From the NCBI RefSeq assembly GCF_019059575.1, contig NW_024881696.1, positions 620,001-684,000 on the forward strand: DNA of 64,000 nt. Reading direction: 5' to 3'. Under the pieces are notes generated by a model that was not told the origin of the DNA, did no database searches, and saw only the letters and a list, made by a program, of their open reading frames with translations. Positions 21,901 through 24,900 of this stretch are shown here, piece after piece (the first letter of the stretch is position 1; each line of letters starts with the position of its first letter). Made by a program: the position numbers and the translations under genes. Source of the DNA: Amphibalanus amphitrite (lineage: Eukaryota > Arthropoda > Thecostraca > Balanomorpha > Balanidae).

Positions 21901-24900
21901 CACCCTGTGACCTATTCGCCTCTGACCTGTGTCTTTCCCTCCCACAGTCGGTGACAAGATCCCCGCCGATCTGCGCCTGATGAAGATCTTCTCGACCACG
22001 CTGCGCATTGACCAGTCGATCCTCACTGGAGAGTCTGTGTCTGTGATCAAGCACACTGACCCCGTGCCCGACCCGCGTGCCGTCAACCAGGTATGTTTGT
22101 GTGTTGTGGGTGTGCTCCTGTTCCCCGCCCCTGACAGGGAACGGCGATATGCGCGTGAGAGTGACCCCTGCATAGATAACATCGGGAGGCGATAGACAAA
22201 GAGGCGGGTTTTGTAAAGCTGGATCGTGTTTGCGAGTAGCTGCGATGGTTGGTTGTCTCTAACCGGCATGAGTGTGATTTGTAGTTGATGTGTACTTCGT
22301 GCATGGATCTTGAAGGGTTCAAAATTGGTGGCTGGAAATGATTGATTGAGCCTTCTGAATTTTAATGCTGAGTTGTTGATTTATGGCTCAAATGCATTGA
22401 GTAAACATCAAGTTTTCTCATTTTTAGGACTGACAGCACTGATTTTGATTATATTTTACTCCGAGATATATAAAAAACGGACAGATGAGTTATGGCTGAA
22501 TCATTTAGGTATTGTATGGAATACTTTATCATGCGAACTACAATTCGGACATCAACCCTTCTTTGGGGGAAATGACCGTCTTGAATGATCTGTTCAGCTG
22601 TAAATTTCTAGAGGTAGCTAGCTTAGCTGAAATGGCTGCCATCAGTGTAAATGTGCGCGCATGTGTGAAGGCCGTTTGGTACTTTTCATGCAATGCCTAT
22701 TTGATCTACTGACGAGCGATCATTTTTACATAAGATACCCTTGGGCCTGGGTATAGTCGATTGATTGGGTTCTGAGGCGTGTGGTGACGAATTGCCGTGT
22801 GTGACCCCGCTGGTATCAGCCCCACCCCTCTCCCCTACCTCAGAGTGTCACTAACCCCACGGCCCGACTGGCGGCCGAACCCGCACGGAGTGCCCCCTAC
22901 CCTGTCCCCACCCGGCCGCCCCTCGAGCGGGCGGCACCGCTGACTATCGTCTCTTTCTCTCTGTCTCTGTCTTTGCTCGGACCGGCCAGCCGGCCTCCGG
23001 CGAGCCTGCTGAGGAGGGCCAGGAGGGCCACTCCAAGGCCAGGGCCATTATACAGGTAAAGACGCCACCCGCCGCTCTGTCTGCTTCGGTCGCGCACACT
23101 GACTCGTGTGCCGCGCACACACGCATACACACACGATGCCTCCGGGTCGCCATCGCTTCCTGTCGGGGTTTACAGCGCTTCCGAACGGCTGGGGCCGGCC
23201 GCCGCTGCTCGGGACGCTAGATTCCAGTCGGGATGACCTGTAGAACGACGTAGATCCCTTGTAGATTCCATCGGACTCTGTAGATTCCAACAGGTGAAGG
23301 AGTCTGCAGCTGGGCTCGCTGCTGTCTGAACAGGTATCTGGACGCCACTGATCCTTCTCTTGCAGCGGGGAGCGGACGAGGAGCCACTAACTGCAAGCCG
23401 CTGGTGCCCGCTGGCTAACAGTGGTGCCGGTGGTGCTGCTGGTGACGCTGGTGCCCATGGTGCCGACAGTGCTGCCAAGTCTGGTGGTGGCTTCATGTTG
23501 TACATAAACTGCTCGGGCCGCGCGCTGTGTGTAGAGAATTGGCCAGACGCCGCTTCGGTTGCTTCTTGTCGTGGCTAGACGCCGCCGCCATCACCTCTGC
23601 CGCCACTGGCGGTGCGGTGATGAGGCGACCCTTCGCGTAGAACGCTTGGTTGTGTAGCTAGATCGGTTCTGCGCGCAGTTGTTGGCTGGGTGTTTGCTGT
23701 TGGATGACGCTGTCTCACTCGATGTTGTGTCTCGCCCATGTTTAATGTAAACTTGTTACGTTTGAGCACCGTTTGCCATGTTGGCACAAAAGTTCCTTGT
23801 TTGAGCGTGTCACCTTGCGATCAACGAAACCACAGTGTGATCTGACATGCCGTGGCCATGCTGTCGACACGCGCTCTGCCGCCGGTGTCCGTCCCCTCCC
23901 CGGTACCTCTGTTTGACATGTGTCCGCCTCCGCCGCCGTCCGCAGGACAAGAAGAACATCCTGTTCTCCGGCACCAACGTGGCCGCCGGCAAGGCTCGCG
24001 GTATCGTCATTGGCACTGGCCTGAACACCGCCATCGGTCAGATCCGTACCCAGATGGCCGATACTGAGGAGATGAAAACTCCGCTGCAGCAGAAACTGGA
24101 CGAGTTCGGCGAGCAGCTCTCCAAGGTTAGGAGGGAGAGGGCTAGGTGGGAGTTTGGGATGGAATCGTGGGGTGTGCCTGACATGAATGTGTCAGGGATC
24201 AAACAGAGTAGCTGTTGAGGTAGGCTGGGCAAATTATACACAGAGCTGGTTTCTCTGGTGGTTTTCTGTCTTGTTTACGGTACAATGTCCTCGGATCATT
24301 GCAAAACTAACATGAGTCGTACATACAGCTTGTGGCTGCTCATTTCCATTCCTAACATTGGTAATCAAGCATCGATTACACGTATTGTCGCCCTCTCTCT
24401 CCCATTTTTATCGCTAATGATGCGACGCGAGTTTCTGAAGTACCGACTATTTGTATCTTACGGAGTGATCCGCACACTTAATGACACCGTTTCCGTCCCG
24501 CCTTCCCCAGGTCATCTCGATCATCTGCGTTGCCGTGTGGGCCATCAACATCGGCCACTTTAACGACCCGGCCCACGGCGGCTCCTGGATCAAGGGCGCC
24601 ATCTACTACTTCAAGATCGCCGTGGCGCTGGCCGTGGCCGCCATCCCCGAGGGTCTGCCGGCTGTCATCACCACCTGTTTGGCGCTGGGCACCCGGCGTA
24701 TGGCCAAGAAGAACGCCATCGTGCGCTCGCTGCCCTCTGTGGAGACGCTCGGCTGCACGTCCGTCATCTGCTCTGACAAGACCGGCACGCTGACCACCAA
24801 CCAGATGTCCGTGTCGCGCATGTGCGTGTTCGCTGACGAGAGCAGCATGCACGAGTTCGACATCACCGGATCGACCTACGAGCCCATCGGAGATATTTTC

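Follow-up and report, generated by a model that had tools for sequence, protein, structure and literature searches.

Positions 22990 to 23055 of the window, by which we mean the whole 64,000-nucleotide stretch of DNA analyzed here, may form a minor in-frame cassette exon of a SERCA calcium pump gene, skipped by default. We give this reading a probability of about 0.45; such a weakly included, repressible exon ranks about level with a nonfunctional pseudo-exon. It is favored because the frame is open and phase compatible, because no other object in the introns qualifies under a splice model that admits a distant branch point, and because of its codon score and the tetramer density of its pyrimidine tract. 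Further support comes from human exons with distant branch points, which are often alternative, and from the inserts borne by PMCA and by engineered SERCA (PMC1431707 and PMC8428515, both in excerpt). Against it we counted the weak proximal acceptor, the codon score once adjusted for GC content, a near-repeat within the exon, the lack of an insert in relatives, and an AG-free zone of ordinary length.

An open frame in intron 6 of a SERCA gene

A tblastn search with what we take to be the rabbit SERCA1 sequence located a SERCA gene that lies whole in the window on the + strand (3856 to 29318). When exon boundaries were set by GT/AG signals and frame, the gene resolved into 14 coding exons (3856 to 29229), followed by a read-through to a stop at 29318. 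The conceptual translation, read-through C terminus past the last donor included, is uninterrupted over 1021 residues and describes a full-length, presumably arthropod-like pump, with the TGES, DKTGT, and TGDGVNDA motifs, a SERCA-type loop, and Pfam E1-E2_ATPase and Hydrolase matches in exon 8 and exon 11. The introns total 22,397 nt (22.4 kb). Exon 6 (21948 to 22090, + strand) carries the TGES motif and the first part of the Val200 loop and ends with ..PDPRAVNQ before gtatgt, in phase 0; exon 7 (23946 to 24125, + strand) is preceded by cag and starts with GACAAG, also in phase 0. The GC content of intron 6 (22091 to 23945, + strand, 1855 nt), computed per 100 nt, is 0.31 to 0.47 from 22191 to 22790 and 0.57 to 0.68 from about 22791 to 23690.

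A 66-nt phase-0 open frame between cag and GT in this intron had been reported in an earlier note, and we confirmed it at 22990 to 23055 on the + strand, between a candidate 3' splice site (cag, 22987 to 22989, + strand) and a candidate 5' splice site (gtaaag, 23056 to 23061, + strand). The stretch is in phase 0-0, has a length divisible by 3, and encodes 22 residues; the spliced frame from exon 6 through the candidate to exon 7 contains no stop. On inclusion, the protein would grow by 22 residues between Q205 and D206, the insertion point given earlier and the right one for this protein as conceptually translated. Within the candidate is a near-repeat of 9 nt (GAGGAGGGC/CAGGAGGGC). Upstream on the + strand, the best branch-like motif, CTGAC (22940 to 22944), has its A at 22943, 47 nt from the first exon base, and adjoins a long pyrimidine tract with many PTB-type tetramers (22947 to 22978), which GGACCGGC separates from the CAG. 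The splice signals had been called textbook: the cag and gtaaag are indeed present, but the donor and the proximal acceptor are weak, the tract is broken, and the branch is distant. The stretch is real as sequence; as an exon candidate, it is a fair one but not textbook.

Exon-like character depends on the splice model

We scored the splice sites by leave-one-out with the gene's own matrix. The candidate donor, with A and not G at +5, reached 5.3 on a scale where the 14 gene donors span 2.2 to 11.0. Twelve of these donors lie above it and only those of E3 and E14 below; the set of 14 includes the E14 donor, which is a presumed one. Of 1463 intronic GTs, 70 are as good. By a plain -20..+3 matrix, the acceptor (-2.5) falls under all 13 real acceptors (2.1 to 18.0). 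With such plain matrices, the SERCA introns hold 22 phase-compatible open pairs (24 to 300 nt, some overlapping) at least as good as the candidate, itself included, and six of them are in intron 6. This abundance speaks for the main rival reading, a pseudo-exon in which chance splice-like sites flank an open stretch in the GC-rich part of the intron, the tract is simple sequence, and splicing happens never or hardly ever. We regard that reading as a serious one, somewhat short of even odds.

Upstream of the candidate, from -60 to the CAG, adenosines occur only at 22946, 22943, and 22936, plus one at 22981; the first three are plausible branch adenosines, at a distance of 44, 47, and 54 nt, and there is no nearer plausible one. 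With the branch motif weights that we presume to apply, the best motif lies 21 to 30 nt from the exon in 12 of the 13 real introns and at 51 nt in the remaining one. The AG-free zone at the candidate, 60 nt, is not long for the gene (35 to 98 nt).

A fuller, logistic acceptor model was trained on the 13 real acceptors versus 971 other intronic AGs (AGs within 100 nt of an intron's start were not counted), its features being proximal pyrimidines, the best 20-nt pyrimidine count, the AG-free zone, the branch motif to about -60, and the -3 base. Here the candidate acceptor scored 2.37. In leave-one-out scoring, two of the 13 real acceptors stayed under this value, and among the 971 other AGs, nine scored as high. 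Once thresholds were set on this acceptor score and on the donor, the candidate was the only phase-compatible exon-like object in the 22.4 kb of SERCA introns, and no other object passed both thresholds in 93.5 kb of null sequence (30 to 64 kb on both strands plus the reverse strand of the SERCA locus), whether in phase 0 or in all three phases, which argues against a pseudo-exon. The real exons passed in 11 of 13 cases, scored by the model that they had trained.

Dropping features changed this picture to different degrees. Removing the AG-free zone left 0 rivals among the SERCA introns and 0 null hits; removing the best 20-nt count, 1 rival and 3 null hits; and removing the branch, 2 of each. 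A model reduced to proximal pyrimidines plus the -3 base gave 5 rivals and 75 null hits, one that required the branch at about -35 to -18 gave 5 rivals and 23 null hits, and both of these models placed the candidate under all 13 real acceptors. The 65 to 83 of 971 intronic AGs that match the candidate in proximal-pyrimidine or close-branch models, together with these 23 to 75 null hits, count in favor of a pseudo-exon. Across the six acceptor models, the candidate beats 0, 1, or 2 of the 13 real acceptors, depending on the model. All models were chosen after the candidate had been seen, in the order plain matrices (unfavorable), codon score, fuller acceptor model (favorable), and feature dropping (mixed). 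Some splice models make the candidate look more like an exon than expected by chance and others do not, and since models with a close branch or proximal features only reverse the result, the exon claim depends on a branch point about 47 nt away.

Chance expectation and codon use

We estimated chance expectation with order-2 Markov shuffles of the SERCA introns in 300-nt blocks (n = 1600). Under the fuller model, an object with splice sites and frame arose in 193 of 1600 shuffles (12%) anywhere in the SERCA introns, another point for a pseudo-exon, and in 23 of 1600 in intron 6. Adding the candidate's codon score made such objects rare, with 4 of 1600 over all SERCA introns, which tells against a pseudo-exon, and 0 of 1600 in intron 6. 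A smaller run gave 5 of 60 and 1 of 60, respectively, none with the codon score. With plain matrices, 300 shuffles of intron 6 contained on average 2.05 splice-and-frame objects, and 3 of the 300 also matched the codon score. Shuffling breaks up natural long pyrimidine tracts and therefore flatters the candidate, a fault that the natural null sequence does not share. The candidate was, moreover, chosen by eye out of 64 kb, and a 22-codon open frame would be unremarkable in GC-rich DNA; both considerations favor a pseudo-exon.

The codon score of the candidate is 8.1 versus average intron sequence, where SERCA's own 22-codon windows reach 17.7 ± 5.4. Only 17 of 8949 open + strand intron windows score as well, those around the candidate included, and the top window of all (15.1) is in the candidate's frame at 22981, with 9 nt of this window outside the exon. 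The other five frames of the candidate score -6 to -44. As a control, 13 of 9154 reverse-strand windows are as good, the best at 13.8. Measured against GC-rich intron tiles, the score drops to 3.7, with 97.8% of SERCA windows above it; this value is matched by 25 of 8866 + strand and 63 of 9042 - strand windows, the candidate's surroundings left out. The 9-nt near-repeat could make the codons look favorable. Two of the 22 splice-qualified pairs outscore the candidate for codons, namely, its own inner part (23014 to 23055) and 9835 to 9912. The latter, in intron 4, is a phase-compatible open stretch of 26 residues that qualifies with plain matrices and fails the fuller acceptor model. A shorter exon from 23014 (42 nt; codon score, 3.8) stays admissible; a longer one from 22891 (165 nt) is open, but we rejected it for its codon score of -15.8.

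The pyrimidine tract

We counted PTB-type tetramers, using a set that we assume to represent PTB binding, and found 13 in the 60 nt upstream of the candidate, versus 0 to 9 at real acceptors. Among 1086 sliding intron windows, only the tract itself reached 13, and once overlapping windows were removed, the maximum was 9 among 1081, a uniqueness at odds with a pseudo-exon. The tract is dense in CUCU/UCUU. Judged from its motifs, it could mark a PTB-repressed exon, and it could also be a simple pyrimidine repeat. A single TGCATG occurs at 22300, about 690 nt upstream of the candidate; we considered control by RBFOX and did not use it.

Other origins of the open stretch

The stretch might instead serve another transcript in the GC-rich block from 22791 to 23690, either as an exon (a start exon or one in antisense) or as part of a mobile element. 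The GC content of the block, sharply unlike that of the upstream intron, and its several long open frames on both strands are compatible with such an origin. The 121-aa frame around the candidate, however, has no Pfam match, no Rfam match was obtained, and the intron has neither a second copy in the window nor inverted repeats, so that we consider this origin improbable.

A constitutive exon, with the 22 residues always present in the SERCA of this species, is more improbable still. The frame is intact and the sequence forbids nothing of the kind, but the proximal signals are weak for this gene, and relatives lack the insert. The alignment with 17 solved SERCA1 and SERCA2 sequences, among the 60 of 78 matches listed, ran end to end over 108 of 108 residues spanning the junction, with no length change and no insert at Q205/D206. 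From TGES to the next conserved GT/GS, the window protein has 32 residues, or 54 with the insert. We measured the same stretch, its ends set by eye, in 18 prokaryotic relatives retrieved by a search with exon 7, and the 32 residues of the protein without insert proved common: 32 in 7 relatives, 31 in 3, 30 in 1, 34 in 1, and 19 in 6. As none exceeds 34 residues, this loop varies by shortening and not by lengthening of the kind considered here. The exon 7 search, run on public contigs for animal contaminants, returned only these 18 prokaryotic loci and no relative on a viral contig.

Three further ideas were rejected: a mutually exclusive duplicate of exon 6 (both end in RA..Q), because the swap would lose TGES and intron 6 has no second copy in the window; a mobile element or repeat, since neither a second copy in the window nor inverted repeats were seen and direct pairs numbered only two, both weak; and a noncoding RNA or tRNA, given 0 Rfam matches at gathering scores and 0 tRNA genes in a scan set to the bacterial code.

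The insertion site and its possible consequences

Q205 is equivalent to residue 202 in the solved SERCA1 and SERCA2 proteins. In rabbit SERCA1, the Val200 loop comprises Lys189 to Lys205 and is docked on the P domain by ionic contacts, and this docking is described as crucial for the structure of E2P (PMC5259720, in excerpt). The tryptic T2 site, Arg198, lies within the loop and becomes resistant once the loop docks (PMC5259720). The insert would therefore fall inside the loop, four residues past the T2 arginine, in agreement with the earlier note, which had placed it near the loop that carries the classical tryptic site and moves against the P domain.

If the candidate is a repressible cassette exon, a PTB-like protein may cover the tract and keep the exon out in most cells. 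Where this protein is low, the exon would be included and the pump would gain 22 flexible, net acidic residues after Q205. A Val200 loop with this insert might dock less well on the P domain, E2P might then be formed or processed differently, and the outcome could be a slower turnover of the pump or a new site for a protease or a partner. That splicing lengthens the Val200 loop in a regulated manner, and so sets the speed of E1P-to-E2P conversion or the processing of E2P in particular tissues, is a more speculative proposal, and we hold it to be rather unlikely. If true, splicing would act as a switch within SERCA's catalytic actuator domain instead of at the C terminus, and a natural insert in the Val200 loop would offer a natural test of how pump speed depends on the length and charge of this contact. 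If the stretch is a pseudo-exon, it warns that assumptions on branch distance alone decide such calls.

Comparison with known splice variants

The closest known case is splice site A of PMCA, where the human variants z, x, and w carry 0, 12, or 45 optional residues and basal activity is changed (PMC8428515, in excerpt). As with the candidate, the spliced residues lie in a cytosolic region of a P2 calcium pump, beside the actuator domain; the PMCA inserts, however, are in the A-M3 linker, after that domain, whereas the candidate would lie within it, in a loop that touches the P domain. The PMCA inserts were shown by cDNA; the present one is a candidate read from DNA. The candidate is no PMCA site A insert, the gene being SERCA and the junction inside the actuator domain. 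When Nyholm Holdensen and Andersen (2009) put up to 41 extra Gly/Pro residues into a SERCA linker, the pump kept about 30% turnover (PMC8428515, in excerpt); these residues, too, are beside the actuator domain, but they are engineered and in the A-M3 linker. Alternative splicing is known to produce C-terminal isoforms of SERCA, also in invertebrates such as Artemia (PMC3527596, in excerpt), a variation in the same gene family that alters the C terminus and not, as the candidate would, the actuator domain.

The branch geometry also has a parallel, since human exons with a far-upstream branch are enriched for alternative splicing (PMC1431707, in excerpt). The candidate resembles them in having its putative branch motif beyond the final 40 nt, a pyrimidine tract next to the branch and not the AG, and no AG in between. 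That class is defined by an AG-free zone of at least 100 nt (PMC1431707), and the candidate, with 60 nt, lies outside it.

The suggestion that such an insertion would be a new way of tuning a calcium pump was too wide, because splice inserts in the A-M3 linker already alter PMCA (PMC8428515); the accompanying statement that SERCA isoforms differ at the C terminus agrees with the isoforms described in PMC3527596. In the portions of the open-licence literature on SERCA splicing that we consulted, we found no report of an actuator-domain exon, a weak indication of novelty. If real, the variant would appear to be new for SERCA and, by analogy, of a kind known from PMCA splice inserts next to the actuator domain.

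Additional features of the SERCA gene and the window

From frame and splice sites, we recognized an 18-nt SERCA microexon, AGCTCCCAGCTGAAGAGG, at 4300 to 4317 (with flanks, ELPAEEG). Vertebrate SERCA genes also have an 18-nt exon 2. Compared with the rabbit sequence as we assume it to be, the protein has three residues more than rabbit EEGEETITAF between transmembrane segments 1 and 2 (6872 to 6985); it also has four residues fewer after the phosphorylation motif, as well as a 12-residue stretch in place of rabbit VTDGLPATALGF (24511 to 24904 and 27781 to 28084). At the 3' end, the last mapped donor is at 29229 (GACG/gtaatg), and translation past it as far as 29318, where the stop lies, gives a C terminus that resembles the read-through type of SERCA isoform, in which one more membrane segment is present. 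Intron 4 (13.5 kb) contains a tandem repeat of about 214 nt in 3.3 copies (13277 to 14164), and two arrays of related short tandem repeats lie at 38522 to 38691 and 40091 to 40248, which contain palindromic GGCCGTTTG..AACGGCC units.
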